Source: Bacteroidaceae bacterium (lineage in GTDB: Bacteria > Bacteroidota > Bacteroidia > Bacteroidales > Bacteroidaceae). Taken from it: a stretch of 48,386 bases of DNA. Each line of letters begins with the position of its first letter. Position 1 is the first letter of the stretch. Shown here piece after piece: positions 10,907-45,421 of the stretch. Location of the stretch: positions 1 to 48,386 of the forward strand of contig JAKSLI010000021.1 in NCBI GenBank assembly GCA_024401305.1, read 5' to 3'. The notes beneath the pieces were generated by a model. That model was given only the letters and a program-made list of their open reading frames with translations, was not told where the DNA came from and did no database searches. Made by a program: the position numbers and the translations under genes.

Positions 10907-12463
10907 TTAGAATGGAATGTCCTGCTCTTGAGGAGTAAGAATTTCGCTTGCATCCTGCTTCTGCTCTACTTTCAGAGTCTCGATATCAACTCTGCTTACA
11001 AGATACTTGTATCCATTCTTTGTGCGTTTAGTATCAAAGCCAAGTCTCTTCATGGCCTTGCCTATATTGACAGCCTTATAGTCACCGCCATGGAATCCAT
11101 GGGCTACGAGTTCCTGCTGTATCTCGCCGGAAGATATTGCGATAATATCCATGTCTGAAGATGGCAGACGATAGAAAGTTCTCAACACTTCCATGCAGTC
11201 ATTAGGCTCCATGTAGTCTTTGTCGTGCTCCGTGATGGCAATACTGTCCTCCCGAGTAGGCTTTGGATTGTAACCATTCTTTATGAGATACAGTGCCTGA
11301 GCGTAAGCACCCTCGTAATTCAGTGGATAGTCGCTGAGGTTCTTTGTTCCGACGATGTCGATGCCCACATATCGGCGACTTCCTTCCGGATCACGAATGA
11401 ATCGCTTCTGGTTAGTGGCTGCAATGAGAGATGCCTTACGCTTACGATGCTCACGGTTGTGTCCATACGAATCTCGTTCGTAGCTGGAACTGGAAGTAAT
11501 GGCATATTTGTAGGCATCACTCTTCTTGTCACTGCCAAAGGAGAACTCGTCAAGGAAGAGCATAGCCATCTCGGACAAAGAGATTACAAAGTCCTTATCC
11601 ACCTTAGCCGTTGGATTGACATTATACTGATACTCACGCAGTTCAGGTGGCAGGATTCTGTTTATCAGGTAGGTCTTACCAATGTGTTGCTCACCGCAGA
11701 ACACAGGTACTATCGAATTATCGTCTGTTAATCCAAGCCATAACTGGTTCATGCCGACAAACCATTTCTTGAATATTGTATCATAGAATTCCGTTTCCTC
11801 TGGATTTCCGAACTCTATATGTCCGACAAAGAAGTCCCTGATATAGTCAGGGTCTGTATCAGGATTCCAAGGAGTCAGATGGCTGTAATAATCCTTGAAA
11901 GGGTCAAAGTCCTGCACATAGTCCTTGCTTTGTAGCAATGCAATAAGGAGCTTGTCAGTAGCCTTGATGCCTTCCTCTATCATACGGCAGAGGAATGTAG
12001 AGCGGTCACGGTCTTTTACTGGCACCCATTTGTCTCCATCCAGCATCTCTGCGCGGTTAGTCCAGATGTTGAAACGGAGCTTTGCGTATCGGTTCAGAGC
12101 TTCCTTCATCTGTTCCATAACATTCACTTTCTCTGCCTTTTCACCCTTCTGGCTTGGACGTCCTACAGGCATACTTGTGTCAATGCCATGACTCTTTGCC
12201 AGACTCATGAGCGTACCGAGGCTGACAAGCTGCTTGCTTGTCTTCATGCAGTAGTCGAATTTCTGGTCGCATTCGGCATGGTCATAACCAGGATATTGTT
12301 GGCAGATGAGGTGATAACTGCTGCGTGCCTCCTCGCCAAGCGAGGTGCAGGCAAAGGTAATGTTTATCCAATCTGCATGATCGGATGTGATGTCAACATG
12401 ACCGTCACTGATGCGCTGAGCCACAACCTGTAGCTTGCGCAAGTCTTTTTCGTTGTTTGTCAT
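10907..12463 (-). CDS. VapE-like AAA+ helicase/primase-associated protein
   Basis: 518 residues from ATG 12463 (MTNNEKDLRKLQVVAQ). The central domain carries a Walker A motif (CGEQHIGKTYL), a Walker B-like MLFLDEF and a downstream AATNQKRF...GSRRY segment. That pattern is seen in virulence-associated E (VapE) proteins, which are superfamily 3-like replication helicases of phages, satellites and mobile elements. The C-terminal ~100 residues look like a winged-helix region (EIQQELVAHGFHGGDYKAVNIGKAMKRLGF). The start overlaps the stop of the upstream BT4734-type gene by one base (TAATG), so the two are translationally coupled. No integrase or capsid gene is nearby, suggesting a domesticated or remnant replication module. 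Confidence 0.8.
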   Translation of the reverse strand: MTNNEKDLRKLQVVAQRISDGHVDITSDHADWINITFACTSLGEEARSSYHLICQQYPGYDHAECDQKFDYCMKTSKQLVSLGTLMSLAKSHGIDTSMPVGRPSQKGEKAEKVNVMEQMKEALNRYAKLRFNIWTNRAEMLDGDKWVPVKDRDRSTFLCRMIEEGIKATDKLLIALLQSKDYVQDFDPFKDYYSHLTPWNPDTDPDYIRDFFVGHIEFGNPEETEFYDTIFKKWFVGMNQLWLGLTDDNSIVPVFCGEQHIGKTYLINRILPPELREYQYNVNPTAKVDKDFVISLSEMAMLFLDEFSFGSDKKSDAYKYAITSSSSYERDSYGHNREHRKRKASLIAATNQKRFIRDPEGSRRYVGIDIVGTKNLSDYPLNYEGAYAQALYLIKNGYNPKPTREDSIAITEHDKDYMEPNDCMEVLRTFYRLPSSDMDIIAISSGEIQQELVAHGFHGGDYKAVNIGKAMKRLGFDTKRTKNGYKYLVSRVDIETLKVEQKQDASEILTPQEQDIPF

Positions 12464-13134
12464 TATTTTATTGTATTTGATTTCTTGAACATTGGATTGA
12501 TATAACACTCAGGATCGTATGGCAGATAGCAAGCACGACCGATGTCAGAACCGGAATCGTCAACAAGTACTCCGTACTCGAACAGCACATACTTACGAAC
12601 CTCAAGGTACATGTCCCTATGACTTATCTGCTGCCATTGTTCTGGAACTACAGCGATGTTCTTCAGTCCGTCACCACGAGGAGATGTAAAGCAAAGAGCA
12701 GACACAAGCCATGTGTCTTTGGTTATTTGCGATTTGATACGCTCCACATCCTCTTTTGTGCCGAGATGGTCAAGGTCAATGGTCACAAACATACTTCTCT
12801 CCAAGATGCTATCAGCCTTACGATAGTGGAAAATGCCACTGAAGGTTGCTATCTCGAAGTTAAGTTTCTTGAACCGTTGCTCAGCATCGTTCTCCTGCTT
12901 CGTAGGATTCTTGATGTCGGCACGTTTGTTGACCAGTTCACGAATGCCTTCCGTGGCATCCGTTGCCGCATTACTTGTTATGTACGCGAAGGCATCCAGG
13001 ATTGTCCACGATGGCTCTGACGGATGCACACTGAGCACCGCCTGTCCTTTCTTGTTGATGTACCCTTTTGGGTAGTGGGAGAACCGCATATCTGTAATGC
13101 GAGTTCCGCTGATGGAGATTTTTGCGAGTTTCAT
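12463..13134 (-). CDS. BT4734/BF3469-type (VirE N-terminal) primase-like domain protein
   Basis: 223 residues, matching the BT4734-like N-terminal domain often joined to or placed before VapE helicases in Bacteroidetes. A conserved acidic segment MFVTIDLDHLG sits near residue 115. SALCFTSPRGDGLKNIAVVP and DDSGSDIGRACYLPYDPECY follow, as in archaeo-eukaryotic primase-like folds. It probably supplies priming for the helicase encoded next, sharing the TAATG junction. A consensus promoter lies about 155 nt upstream. Confidence 0.75.
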   Translation of the reverse strand: MKLAKISISGTRITDMRFSHYPKGYINKKGQAVLSVHPSEPSWTILDAFAYITSNAATDATEGIRELVNKRADIKNPTKQENDAEQRFKKLNFEIATFSGIFHYRKADSILERSMFVTIDLDHLGTKEDVERIKSQITKDTWLVSALCFTSPRGDGLKNIAVVPEQWQQISHRDMYLEVRKYVLFEYGVLVDDSGSDIGRACYLPYDPECYINPMFKKSNTIK

Positions 13135-13385: not shown

Positions 13386-14615
13386 TTATTTTCTGTATTC
13401 TAAAAGGTAATGCATCAAACCACATTCCTTCAAAAGCTCATTTAGTTTGTCAATTTCATTTCCATGATCTCGTTTGGTGAGATTGTGAATGTTGCGGTAA
13501 ATTGTAGTCTGGACAGCATTGGCATCATCATTGGTCAACATTGCTATAACTTGTATCAATTTACTTTTGTTGCCAGCGAATGTACTGAAATCTTTAATTC
13601 CCAGCACTTTCAAGGCTAAGTTTATCCTAACCCTTCTCTTTAAATCAGAAGAGAAAGCTGAGAGGTCTTCAAGTTCTACTTCAAGTTCTTCATTATAAGC
13701 ATCATGGTCTTCATTGATACGAGATTTCATTCCTTCCATTTCCTTGTTAGGCGTAGCCACTTTATTATCTGGTAAATTAGAAGGCAGTTTCTCCTGTATC
13801 CATCCCTCCAACCGTCTTATGCCTTTTATTGTAAGTTTGTATCCATTATCACACGATGCAGGTTCTTTGACCAATCCATCGTCAATCATCTCTTTTATGA
13901 TAGCGTCAAAATAATCGGTGTCTAAATCTTCGGGCTGTCCCCAATGCTCTTTGTTGTCAGATAGCCATTTCCAAACGATTATCTCGTATTCATTTACTTC
14001 GAAGAATCGTAACCATTTATCTACATTTTCTTCTCTTCTACGTTGTTCCTCTTCCCACAATTCTTCTTCTGCACTCATGTTCCTCACATAGTTGTAGTCT
14101 TTGCACAACGTCTCGTTTTCAAACGCGCCTTCAATGGCGTTCTGAAGTCTTGGTATGAACATCTGTAGAGTTGAGTTGGTTATATTGTTGATTATGGGAT
14201 CTAACAATAGCGAATAGTCACGCTCCTCGTTAAACAGTTCTATGCATTTAAGGATTGCAATTGAATAAAAAAACAATACTTCTAACTCATTTCTATGTTG
14301 ATTTTCGGTCAATTGGGTAAATCCTTCTAATCCATAGTATCCATCATGTCCTCTCTTGGTCATAGTGTATGAGGCCAAATCATCATAGAGAAATTGTGCA
14401 TGTGTATCTAAGATTCTGTCAGGATGTTTGCTTTGCAATAGCGTCTTCACAAATTCCTTTGCATCTTCCCAGTTCTCCACTTTGGTAGTTTTCTTATGTA
14501 CATTATTATCAATAAAATCAGCAATTGGAGAAATAGTAAGAAACAATGATTCTTCATCAAGAAACTGCTCAAGCTTCTTCATCGCGTCTTCTTTAGAATA
14601 TAATTTAAATGACAT
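13386..14615 (-). CDS. unknown protein with winged-helix-like region (409 aa)
   Basis: I do not recognise this protein as a whole. It is soluble, acidic, and has no signal peptide. Residues ~205-285 (KWLSDNKEHWG...IIKEMIDDGLVKEP...GYKLTIKGIRRLEGW) look like a winged-helix DNA-binding region. The last ~75 residues (NKSKLIQVIAMLTNDDANAVQTT...IDKLNELLKECGL) resemble the C-terminal segment of RteC-like and other mobile-element proteins of Bacteroidetes. It is divergent from the structured leader and methyltransferase, with back-to-back promoters, so it may regulate or belong to that system. The start (ATG 14615) follows a promoter at 14653. Confidence 0.55.
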   Translation of the reverse strand: MSFKLYSKEDAMKKLEQFLDEESLFLTISPIADFIDNNVHKKTTKVENWEDAKEFVKTLLQSKHPDRILDTHAQFLYDDLASYTMTKRGHDGYYGLEGFTQLTENQHRNELEVLFFYSIAILKCIELFNEERDYSLLLDPIINNITNSTLQMFIPRLQNAIEGAFENETLCKDYNYVRNMSAEEELWEEEQRRREENVDKWLRFFEVNEYEIIVWKWLSDNKEHWGQPEDLDTDYFDAIIKEMIDDGLVKEPASCDNGYKLTIKGIRRLEGWIQEKLPSNLPDNKVATPNKEMEGMKSRINEDHDAYNEELEVELEDLSAFSSDLKRRVRINLALKVLGIKDFSTFAGNKSKLIQVIAMLTNDDANAVQTTIYRNIHNLTKRDHGNEIDKLNELLKECGLMHYLLEYRK

Positions 14616-14652
14616 AAATCTTTTTGTTAATTAAATGTGCTTTAACTGCCTA

Positions 14653-14684
14653 CAAAGGTACATATATTTAACCATATTATCAAA
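14653..14684 (-). promoter_or_regulatory. promoter of the 409-residue gene
   Basis: The minus strand has TACCTTTG (14660-14653), with a TTG about 20 nt upstream in a T-run. It is divergent from the promoter at 14700. Confidence 0.6.
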
Positions 14685-14699
14685 AAAACAGCGCTATTT

Positions 14700-14730
14700 T
14701 TTGATAAAATCAGTTTTTCTTGTAACTTTG
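14700..14730 (+). promoter_or_regulatory. consensus promoter of the leader RNA / methyltransferase operon
   Basis: TTTG at 14700-14703, exactly 19 nt, then TAACTTTG at 14723-14730. Transcription should start near 14737, leaving a leader of about 310 nt before the methyltransferase ATG. Confidence 0.85.
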
Positions 14731-14736
14731 CAGAGC

Positions 14737-15048
14737 ATAAGCAGAGGAATCTGCTTGCAGACATACGAAAATAGCATTGACTATTATTTGCGTTCTCCTG
14801 AAAAGCCTGGAAACTTTTGATCGGAATAAGAGCACAAACTAATAGCAGTTAGGCACACCTCTGGGACAACTGGGAGTGTTGCCTCTTCACCCATATATGG
14901 TACAATGTTTACGCTTAGGGCGTGAGCATTTCTTATAGGGTGAAGGAGGTTTCATTCCAGGCTGCCTCGGAGAACGCATAAGAAGGTTCATGCCCTTCTT
15001 GTGTTCTTACGTGAGTGATAGGTCGGTGCATAATGACAACCTATCATT
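14737..15048 (+). ncRNA. candidate structured leader RNA upstream of the methyltransferase
   Basis: Between a perfect promoter and the ATG at 15049 there is no gene, but there are several clear hairpins. These are AAGCAGA/TCTGCTT with a GGAA loop (14739-14756); a long imperfect hairpin 14851-14884; CTTCACCC/GGGTGAAG (14885-14892 with 14938-14945, which can extend by CCTC/GAGG into bases of the previous hairpin); GAACGCATAAGAAGG/CCTTCTTGTGTTC (14972-15006); and TGATAGGT/ACCTATCA (15016-15046) ending 2 nt before the ATG. A nine-codon upstream ORF (ATG 15033, stop 15060-15062) overlaps the start. It resembles no tmRNA, RNase P RNA or riboswitch that I know. It could be a leader, an independent RNA, or both. 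Confidence 0.55.
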
Positions 15049-16062
15049 ATGGCAGCAAATAACAACAGTCTTGGCAAAGCAAAGAAAGCCAAGAAAGACG
15101 AGTTCTATACCCAACTTCCGGATATAGAAAAAGAACTTAGGCACTACGAGCATCATTTCAAAGACAAGGTAGTGTTGTGTAATTGCGATGACCCAAAAGT
15201 CAGCAACTTCTTTGTGTATTTCGTAAGGAACTTCAAGCACTTAGGATTGAATCGCCTAATTACGACTTGCTATAAGAATAACGAGCCTACTCTGTTCAGT
15301 AACAACGACAGTGAGCAGGCTGTTTATCTCATATACGATGGTGGTGATGACAATAATCCCGATCCTGTAAAAGTATCTACTACCGCAGTACCATTGAATG
15401 GTGATGGCGACTTCCGTTCTATGGAATGCATAGAACTTCTAAAGCAGGCAGACATAGTAGTTACGAACCCGCCATTCTCTCTTTTTAGGGAATATGTAGC
15501 GCAACTCATCAGGTATGAAAAGAAGTTCTTGATAATAGGAAATCAGAACAACATTTCATACAAAGAGATATTCCCCTTGATACAAAGTAATCAAATATGG
15601 CTTGGATATAATTCTGGTCAACATGAGTTTGAGGTGCCATTGGATTTTGAGAAAGATAATACATACATTAGGAATAACGGCAAGAAATATGCAAAGTTTG
15701 GAAATATTTGCTGGTTTACAAATCTTGAGCATAGTAAAAGACATGAAGAGATTGATTTGTACAGAACATACAATGAAGAACAATACCCTAGATATGTAAA
15801 CTATGATGCTATTAATGTAGCAAAGGTTCAAGACATTCCATACGATTATGACGGAAAGATGGGTGTACCTATAACTTATATGGAAAAGTATTGCCCTGAG
15901 CAATTTGAAATTATAGGTTTCAGCCTGAGTCTTGCAAATATGGATATCATTAAAAGAGAATTGGGAAAAGTTGGTGGCGGTCCTCGCTTTTATATTAGGG
16001 AAAAGAATGGAAAACTAAAACGACTTTTCGAAAGACTCGTAATCAAAAAGAAGCAGCAATGA
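15049..16062 (+). CDS. M.EcoRI-like adenine-specific DNA methyltransferase
   Basis: 337 residues. The sequence KAKKAKKDEFYTQLPDIEKEL and the catalytic NPPFSLFREY motif (residues ~140-149) match the EcoRI-type N6-adenine methyltransferase family. VVLCNCDDPKVSNFFVYF supplies the S-adenosylmethionine-binding region. In this family the enzyme methylates one adenine per recognition half-site to protect DNA. The stop overlaps the next gene (ATGA), so the methyltransferase and nuclease are coupled. No R.EcoRI-like gene is present. The leader and divergent unknown gene upstream are unusual. The target site cannot be read from sequence. Confidence 0.85.
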   Translation: MAANNNSLGKAKKAKKDEFYTQLPDIEKELRHYEHHFKDKVVLCNCDDPKVSNFFVYFVRNFKHLGLNRLITTCYKNNEPTLFSNNDSEQAVYLIYDGGDDNNPDPVKVSTTAVPLNGDGDFRSMECIELLKQADIVVTNPPFSLFREYVAQLIRYEKKFLIIGNQNNISYKEIFPLIQSNQIWLGYNSGQHEFEVPLDFEKDNTYIRNNGKKYAKFGNICWFTNLEHSKRHEEIDLYRTYNEEQYPRYVNYDAINVAKVQDIPYDYDGKMGVPITYMEKYCPEQFEIIGFSLSLANMDIIKRELGKVGGGPRFYIREKNGKLKRLFERLVIKKKQQ

Positions 16063-17201
16063 AAGAAAAGATGACAGTGGAACCTCATCAAATCTCCATT
16101 CGTGAGTTGATTGATGGCTATCGAAATGATGAAGAGGAAGGTGTTGTGGCATTCCATGGACTTCTTAATGTAAGGCCAAAGTATCAGCGTGAGTTTGTCT
16201 ATTCACTTGAGAAACAGATCGCTGTATTAAGAAGTATAATGCAAGGTTTCCCTATAGGTGTTATGTATTGGGTTCGCAATGAAGATGGTACTCTTGAAAT
16301 GCTCGATGGCCAGCAGCGCACAGTAAGTATATGCGAATATGTTGCTGCCAATGCCTTCAGCATAGATTCATTCAAGTTCCATAATCTTAGAGAGGCTAAA
16401 CCTAAGCTGGCAGAGGAAATACTTGACTATAAGCTTCAAGTATATTTCTGTGAAGGTTCTACAGATGATAAACTAGAATGGTTTAGGACGATAAACATTG
16501 GTACAGAGCCTTTGAAGGACCAAGAAATGCGCAATGCTTTCTATACAGGAGAGTGGCTTACAGATGCGAAGAAGAAGTTCTCTAAGGTTACTGGAGTATG
16601 CGTAAGGAAGAACGAAGGACTTGTTACAGGCACTCCTAACCGACAGGAACTATTGGAAAAGGTTCTATTATGGAAAGCTCAATATGATGGAATAGATGAA
16701 GGAAAGCCCGACCTTACAATTCGCAAATACATGGCTGAGCATCAGCATGATGGTAATGCAGATAGTGAACGCCAGTATTTCTTCAAGGTTGTTGATTGGG
16801 CAAACATGCTTTTTGATGGTAACTGGAAGATTAAGAAAGGTCAGCCATGGGGTGAACTTTATAATCTCTATCATAATAATGACTATGACTCTACATTTCT
16901 AAAATCAGAAGTAGAACGTCTTTTGATAGATGATGAAGTAGAGAAAAGTGGTAAAATGGGAATAATCCGCTATCTGTTGAGTGGTGATGAGAAATACTTG
17001 AATCTCCGTACTTTTAGTTATGCTCAGAAGTTGACATTGTATCAAAGACAAGGAGGTATATGTAACATTTGCAAAAAAACATTCGCTTTTGAAGAAATGG
17101 AAGCAGACCATATAGACCCTTGGAAGGATGGAGGAAAGACGATTTTAGAAAATGGTCAGATGCTCTGCAGACATTGTAATAGAAGAAAAAGTGATAAGTA
17201 A
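16059..17201 (+). CDS. DUF262 and HNH domain nuclease, probable restriction component
   Basis: 380 residues. The N-terminal DUF262 (GmrSD/ParB-like) domain shows QREF at 43-46 and DGQQRT at 83-88, the nucleotide-binding motif of this family. The C-terminal 46 residues are an HNH nuclease with two CxxC zinc knuckles (CNIC, CRHC) and ADHIDPW between them. Proteins of this architecture include modification-sensing restriction enzymes and partners in phage defence. It overlaps the methyltransferase stop by 4 bases (ATGA) and ends 6 nt before a strong terminator, so the two genes form a complete operon. I infer a restriction-modification role; specificity is unknown. Confidence 0.8.
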   Translation: MKEKMTVEPHQISIRELIDGYRNDEEEGVVAFHGLLNVRPKYQREFVYSLEKQIAVLRSIMQGFPIGVMYWVRNEDGTLEMLDGQQRTVSICEYVAANAFSIDSFKFHNLREAKPKLAEEILDYKLQVYFCEGSTDDKLEWFRTINIGTEPLKDQEMRNAFYTGEWLTDAKKKFSKVTGVCVRKNEGLVTGTPNRQELLEKVLLWKAQYDGIDEGKPDLTIRKYMAEHQHDGNADSERQYFFKVVDWANMLFDGNWKIKKGQPWGELYNLYHNNDYDSTFLKSEVERLLIDDEVEKSGKMGIIRYLLSGDEKYLNLRTFSYAQKLTLYQRQGGICNICKKTFAFEEMEADHIDPWKDGGKTILENGQMLCRHCNRRKSDK

Positions 17202-17206
17202 ATATA

Positions 17207-17246
17207 AAGCCACGGCTCTCGGTATTGAGAGTCGTGGCTTCTGTTT
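17207..17246 (+). terminator. terminator of the methyltransferase/nuclease operon
   Basis: AAGCCACGGCTCTC against GAGAGTCGTGGCTT, with a six-base loop and one G-T pair, followed by CTGTTTTA. Confidence 0.9.
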
Positions 17247-17769: not shown

Positions 17770-17777
17770 AATTTTTG

Positions 17778-17830
17778 TTTATTTCGTCTGCAAAGTTAAC
17801 ACTTTATTCTTAATCTCCAAAGGAATCGGG
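17778..17830 (-). repeat. 53-bp direct repeat containing a promoter, copy 1
   Basis: This block is identical to 18389-18441. On the minus strand it holds TTGG, 18 nt, then TAACTTTG (17798-17791), a promoter for the antitoxin/PIN operon. Confidence 0.9.
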
Positions 17831-18388: not shown

Positions 18389-18441
18389 TTTATTTCGTCT
18401 GCAAAGTTAACACTTTATTCTTAATCTCCAAAGGAATCGGG
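18389..18441 (-). repeat. 53-bp direct repeat containing a promoter, copy 2
   Basis: Identical to 17778-17830. The minus-strand TAACTTTG box (18409-18402) lies 22 nt before the DUF4160 ATG. Confidence 0.9.
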
Positions 18442-45339: not shown

Positions 45340-45421
45340 GCCCAGATGGCGGAATCGGTAGACGCGCTGGTCTCAAACACCAGTGGAGCAATCCGTGCCG
45401 GTTCGATCCCGGCTCTGGGTA
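45340..45421 (+). tRNA. tRNA-Leu (anticodon CAA)
   Basis: The acceptor stem GCCCAGA pairs with TCTGGGT, and the discriminator A is at 45421. The anticodon stem CTGGT/ACCAG encloses the loop CTCAAAC, giving anticodon CAA. A long variable arm with GGA/TCC marks a class II tRNA, and the T arm is GCCGG-TTCGATC-CCGGC. CCA is not encoded. Confidence 0.96.

Follow-up and report, generated by a model that had tools for sequence, protein, structure and literature searches.

A conserved structured RNA with mutually exclusive helices in the leaders of restriction and surface genes of Bacteroidia

Why should a methyltransferase gene carry, between its promoter and its ATG (at 15049), a leader of about 310 nucleotides? 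The question arises in a window of 48,386 nucleotides (the whole stretch of DNA analyzed here) from a Bacteroidaceae bacterium. For orientation, the dRNA-seq map of B. thetaiotaomicron gives a median 5' untranslated region of 32 nt (PMC7366714). One might ask whether the leader is structured at all, whether it belongs to this one restriction system or to many genes, and what a structure of this kind might do.

The leader and its operon

The leader is a real and conserved structured RNA in the 5' region of the methyltransferase gene. Its predicted fold has an energy of -116.7 kcal/mol, versus -81.6 (sd 5.1) for 100 shuffled sequences, none of which equaled it (z -6.87). This confirms the initial annotation, which had read here a strongly structured leader of about 310 nt, preceded by a promoter of the form TTTG-N19-TAACTTTG. 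That promoter is indeed in place (Table 1), as is the last hairpin, said to end 2 nt from the ATG, where TGATAGGT (15016-15023) pairs with ACCTATCA (15039-15046).

Other parts of that annotation survived only in part. A nine-codon upstream open reading frame (uORF) overlapping the start codon is present, with its ATG at 15033, but only 37 of 152 long leaders have such an overlapping uORF out of frame, in a count that covers only uORFs overlapping the start codon. Alternative pairings exist too. The shared bases 14882-14885 mark the border between P4 and P5; the conserved exclusive pairings lie elsewhere, among X, Y and Z and between P1 and P7.

Table 1. Features of the leader and operon, in window coordinates (z, covariation in permutation tests)
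Feature	Positions	Strand	Evidence
Bacteroidales-type promoter, TTTG-N19-TAACTTTG	14700..14730	+	TTTG 14700-14703, 19 nt, TAACTTTG 14723-14730
Long-form RNA core	14772..15005	+	R1 match, 158.4 bits; this leader is among the 40 sequences behind R1
Strand 1 (AGCATTG), partner 14903-14909 at 5' part of X	14773..14779	+	1:X z 4.2 long, 9.7 short
Strand 1b (CTATTA), partner TAATAG 14840-14845 (PKB)	14781..14786	+	z 6.4
P1 5' strand, partner 14969-14978	14789..14798	+	z 14.5
P2 5' strand, partner 14957-14963 inside P9 loop	14804..14810	+	z 9.1
P5 5' strand, partner 14938-14946; encloses X and Y	14884..14892	+	z 20.1
X, partner Y (14919-14930)	14904..14915	+	X:Y z 8.0 long, 8.9 short
Y, partner X or else Z	14917..14931	+	Y:Z z 8.1 long, 7.7 short
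P9 hairpin (GAGGT 14946-14950 / GCCTC 14964-14968), P2 3' strand in loop	14946..14968	+	z 6.9
P1 3' strand; end 14976-14978 re-used by extended P7	14969..14978	+	extended P7 z 3.9 long, 13.4 short
P7 / extended P7 hairpin, 14976-14986 paired to 14994-15004; overlaps Z	14976..15004	+	P7 z 5.3
Z, partner Y	14982..14996	+	Y:Z covariation
U-rich tract 3' of Z (TTCTTGTG, U in 5 of 8)	14996..15003	+	sequence
P8, hairpin ending at start codon	15015..15047	+	130 of 152 long leaders have a stem of at least 6 bp; z 13.3
EcoRI-type adenine methyltransferase gene	15049..16062	+	PF13651, E 2.6e-134
GmrSD_N/HNH nuclease-like gene	16059..17201	+	Pfam
Terminator-like hairpin 3' of operon	17207..17240	+	terminator scan

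The restriction-modification system of the window has an adenine methyltransferase of the EcoRI family (PF13651). No EcoRI-family endonuclease is next to it; the next gene encodes the GmrSD_N/HNH protein. A relative of this protein follows the methyltransferase in 62 of the 63 EcoRI-type loci that have enough sequence, the window counted.

On the other side of the leader lies a divergent gene of 409 amino acids (13386-14615), for which neither Pfam nor PADLOC gave a match at E 0.001. The restriction-modification pair is adjoined by a VapE/PriCT_2 protein and a BT4734-like_N protein (10907-13134), which suggests a mobile element. By eye, a stretch of about 50 nt (ttatttcgtctgcaaagttaacactttattc...) is seen twice as a direct repeat, at 17776-17825 and 18390-18440, beside two small minus-strand ORFs.

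One RNA, many genes

Judged from its sequences, this RNA is a large family of Bacteroidia, not the private leader of one restriction system. A second copy, 82% identical, lies at a contig end in the same genome. Searching with the DNA of the leader found matches in 6 of 199 genomes, its own included, and of the five other homologs two precede acyltransferases, one a glycosyltransferase, and two methyltransferases, of which one is type III-like and the other EcoRI-type. A pattern made from the conserved 5' part found at least 119 stretches in GTDB contigs. Six of these (L028, L029, L055, L063, L080, L092) were dropped as chance after reading their sequences by eye, as were five matches of a short pattern to viral contigs; among the pattern matches listed, the remaining stretches belong to Bacteroidales or other Bacteroidia. 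A DNA search of phage and plasmid records found nothing similar, within the sensitivity of that search.

Covariance models reach further. RNAalifold, applied to a sequence-only alignment of 100 leaders, recovered only P1 and P2; R1, the model made from 40 long-form sequences, was for this reason built on those two helices alone. Of 301 genomes from the family to which the window belongs, R1 found matches in 78 at E 0.001, and in 64 of these with at least 87 bits. Among 296 genomes from across the phylum, it matched the genome of the window and, weakly, one other.

When 20 of the R1 matches scoring below 60 bits were fetched, 15 proved to be a short form of the RNA, and the other five were long forms that were cut, altered or longer. 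The long form runs to about 230 nt and the short form to about 180 nt; both keep one order of helices. The 15 short forms were made into a second model, R2. In the family, 159 of 201 genomes had a match to it, and two of these genomes had at least 13 places each. Across the class, R2 matched 22 of 109 genomes, 19 of them outside the order. It scores the weak phylum-wide match of R1 at 85.4 bits, and that match, too, is a short form. Because R2 finds long forms weakly, as in the window's own genome, a few of the genomes that it matched may hold long forms only. In that genome, matches lie on contigs C30, C4, C46, C83 and C39 (R2), with C37 added by R1.

Individual leaders vary. A long form (L026) is present in a cultured species, Bacteroides rodentium JCM 16496 (NZ_BAKJ01000028.1). 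The copy on C37 (L227, G000:C37) is a longer variant of 299 nt before a type III methyltransferase gene. In L040, L100 (first copy), L107, L110, L111 and L116, the 3' part is replaced by other sequence; L111, from Prevotella ruminicola KHT3, precedes a gene for a NapC/NirT-family cytochrome. Among the ten short forms from outside the order (L371-L380), several stand, by eye, before secreted or lipoprotein-like genes, and one before a response-regulator-like gene.

What, then, stands behind the RNA? Long and short forms together make 212 distinct leaders, of which 188 have a downstream ORF; in 169 of the 188 it shares the strand of the motif and begins 210-345 nt beyond it. Clustering placed 95 of these ORFs with the EcoRI-type methyltransferases (the window included), 10 with IIG-like and nine with type III-like enzymes, seven with acyltransferases and four with PLD/SNF2 helicases, so that four restriction or defense clusters hold 118 of the 188. 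The Pfam family EcoRI_methylase was found in 62 of 93, 32 of 86 and 3 of 63 proteins of three sets, the last being the short forms, which overlap the set of 86 at no fewer than eight places. The short-form set has N6_Mtase in seven of its 63 proteins, MmeI_Mtase in eight and SNF2 in eight, these counts overlapping; here, defense genes are a large minority, with no clear majority of any kind. PADLOC matches agree with the Pfam picture of the defense genes.

The same RNA thus sits, on the same strand, in the 5' leaders of several unrelated genes. These include type I, IIG-like and III enzymes and PLD/SNF2 helicases and, outside defense, glycosyl- and acyltransferases, sulfatases, BspA-like repeat proteins, lipoproteins and other secreted proteins. 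Membrane O-acyltransferases recur (the MBOAT and Acyl_transf_3 clusters: L102, L228; L011, L012, L108, L124, L266, L269, L272), and they link DNA-modifying with glycan-modifying genes behind the leader.

Such a list does not suit the role first proposed for the leader. It had been tied to EcoRI-type systems, but it precedes unrelated genes, and in a family search that gave 30 EcoRI-type methyltransferase loci, the window among them, a long or short form was detected upstream of 17 and no leader upstream of the other 13. Nor can setting the order in which methyltransferase and nuclease are made be its general job, because the same RNA precedes unrelated genes.

Exclusive helices and the 3' end of the leader

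Part of the refuting evidence named beforehand was a lack of compensatory changes in the stems; such changes are abundant. In the long forms, ten helices covary, with z from 3.9 to 20.1, against -1.7 to 1.0 for nine control pairings. In the short forms, seven helices covary (z 7.7-29.0), against -3.2 to 0.6 for eight control pairings. These permutation tests, of course, ignore phylogeny, and the control pairings are the sole guard against it. The weakest values in the long forms are those of 1:X (z 4.2) and extended P7 (z 3.9), which were reached by 0 and 1 of 5000 permutations. A pairing between strand 1b and the 5' arm of P8 was tried and rejected (z 1.5 long, 1.7 short). One between Z and the same arm is an impression gained by eye in Prevotella members.

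Paired cells tell a similar story. In the P1/P2 alignment, 97.1% of cells are paired, versus at most 37.9% when the strands are slid, and both sides have changed in 87 cells, versus 25 in shuffles. In the short-form alignment, which was fitted to the structure that it is scored by, 93.6% are paired, with 506 both-side changes versus 137 in shuffles. Two of five measures were less decisive: the number of pairs with both-side changes was reached by 11 of 500 shuffles (P1/P2) and 25 of 500 (short forms), and the number of further pair types by 26 of 500 and 40 of 500, respectively.

Some of these helices cannot coexist. Because Y is common to both, X:Y and Y:Z exclude each other; because they share the 3' strand of P1, so do P1 and extended P7. 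In each case both members covary, in long and in short forms alike. The predicted median energies are -23 kcal/mol for Y:Z, -16 for the local X:Y hairpin, and -17 for P1 and for P7.

Directly 3' of Z comes a U-rich tract. At least five U within 8 nt follow Z in 123 of 138 leaders, whereas control windows placed elsewhere in these leaders reach that number in 4.8% of cases, and a U-rich tract lies near the same place in 62 of 63 short forms (counted without a control). With Y:Z as its stem, the arrangement resembles an attenuator whose loop is large and structured. Against that reading, a terminator scan of the window's leader found no compact terminator, the U tract there is interrupted (TTCTTGTG), and as a terminator stem Y:Z would be, in the window, a long-range helix with a 50-nt loop. 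P7 was rejected as a classical terminator; part of the U tract sits in its arm, and in the window the tract is interrupted. P7, including the arm with part of the U tract, covaries as well, which also counts against attenuation.

At the very 3' end, P8 is found in 130 of 152 long leaders, with a median distance of 2 nt between its end and the start codon. It stands before the gene in 79 of 93 EcoRI-type, nine of 10 IIG-like and eight of nine type III-like loci, and in only four of 21 loci whose genes, judged by eye, encode secreted proteins or lipoproteins. Being frequent before restriction genes and rare before secreted ones, it makes the two putative outputs of the leader separable. In 11 short forms tested, P8 was not significant (z 1.7).

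A putative switch, its rivals and known systems

The reading that we prefer, and that we back and doubt in equal measure, is drawn from sequence comparison: the leader would be a bistable cis-acting RNA switch, with attenuation by Y:Z, relief by X:Y, a latch in extended P7 and, in long forms, a translational arm in P8. Unrelated genes behind one RNA fit such a cis-regulator. In one state, A, strand 1 would lie on X, P1, P2 and P9 would form a pseudoknotted core, and Y would pair with Z. This long-range helix, directly before the U-rich tract, would then be an attenuator that halts transcription. In the other, B, the X:Y hairpin would capture Y and leave Z free. With the polymerase past, the strand 3' of Z would pair with the 3' strand of P1, breaking P1, and the extended P7 so formed would lock the RNA in a read-through state. 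P8, at the start codon, would be a second, translational check in the long forms. The choice of state would be set by a signal bound to the conserved 5' core. What the comparison establishes is the homology, the helices and their mutual exclusion, the U-rich tract, the place ahead of the start codon and the classes of genes; termination, the assignment of the off state and the existence of a signal are steps that we infer.

The leader often stands before anti-phage and cell-surface genes, and it may switch them on and off. More tentatively, these leaders might be class-wide sensor RNAs of Bacteroidia, often several per genome, that read one signal and switch a regulon of defense, glycan and surface genes by chained strand exchange and a latch. 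The signal could be a nucleotide, for instance, or a stress signal, one whose level shifts when a phage attacks or when the DNA enters a new host.

Other readings must, of course, be weighed against the switch. One would have it that control is by translation only, with P8 and the exchange between P1 and P7 gating ribosome entry and the U-rich tract serving merely as a partner for A-rich strands. The place of P8, so near the start codon in those 130 of 152 long leaders, speaks for this, as does the window's own leader, with its interrupted U tract and no compact terminator. However, P8 is missing in 17 of the 21 loci read as secreted while the core RNA is still there, and the U tract lies directly after Z in long and short forms alike; we regard translation alone as possible, if rather doubtful. 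It is unlikely that a stable RNA of about 230-270 nt is set free from the leader to work in trans or as a component of the defense system. The compact pseudoknotted core with its U-rich 3' edge does resemble independent RNAs, and several copies occur in one genome, but the ORF starts at its regular distance on the same strand in 169 of 188 cases, and the downstream genes have no common function that would need one RNA partner.

The gene types behind the leader often move between genomes, which would suit a constitutive expression cassette, a leader without any sensing role that keeps mRNA stable or helps its translation in many hosts. The copies with a replaced 3' part (L040, L100 first copy, L107, L111, L116) would suit such a cassette too, whereas it is not obvious what a static element would gain from conserved mutually exclusive helices; we consider it quite improbable. 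It would be very surprising if the element acted as DNA, for example as a site of recombination or phase variation. Its presence before unrelated genes could be read this way, but the G-U pairs and the changes on both sides of pairs point to RNA, and the element has a single orientation toward the gene. It also has a promoter motif upstream: TAnnTTTG occurs within 85 nt in 146 of 208 leaders, versus 7 of 194 control windows, with TTG or TTTG at a fitting distance further upstream in only 76 of those 146.

If the switch reading is true, restriction-modification genes of Bacteroidia, a major gut group, would be under shared RNA-level control, and the same leader on unrelated defense and surface genes would be explained. 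The leader would offer a natural switch usable in Bacteroides. Since 159 of the 201 genomes sampled from one family have a match to the short form, signal and regulon are directly testable.

How does the leader compare with RNAs already known? The initial annotation could name no family for it, and a covariance search against the 4227 families of Rfam agrees, giving no match on the RNA at gathering score. In the whole window, that score was reached only by a tRNA, at 45340; within 14650-15100, a search up to E 10 gave two matches (best E 2.4), far below their cut-offs. The RNA likewise went without a gathering-score match in 10 long-form loci and in 16 loci of the low-scoring group, 15 of them short forms. 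In five short-form loci searched up to E 1, a single match falls on the RNA: mir-981, in L222, with 18.4 bits against a cut-off of 51.

The RNA family is apparently undescribed so far, for the literature searched holds no description of it, though a human microbiome survey (PMC8040213) lists 3161 candidate structured RNAs, some in Bacteroidetes, and an unnamed earlier sighting may be among them. In the main text of that survey the words restriction, methyltransferase and defense are absent; an unnamed overlap may sit in its supplementary tables. Bacteroidales-1, Bacteroid-trp and other Bacteroidetes motifs (PMC2864571) come from the same group of bacteria and are, like the leader, candidate structured RNAs. 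The leader is matched by no Rfam family, in a comparison that covers motifs with an Rfam number; Bacteroides-2 has none in the table of that paper. The main text of that paper lacks the words restriction and methyltransferase.

With the riboswitches and cis-regulatory RNAs of Rfam, the leader shares its 5' position, a conserved core with variable arms, alternative pairings and unrelated genes downstream. It differs from them in its gene set, which is one of defense and surface and not of a single metabolic pathway.

A parallel in its working parts is the attenuator of the trp type. There, a chain of strands forms pairings in which 1:2 and 3:4 exclude 2:3. The leader, in the same manner, has a chain of strands, 1:X, X:Y and Y:Z, that ends at a U-rich tract. 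In contrast to those attenuators, it has a large pseudoknotted core, a long-range helix instead of a compact terminator stem, and unrelated genes downstream. Although no family matched it, we class the leader as a putative cis-regulatory switch RNA because its parts would work like those of known attenuators.
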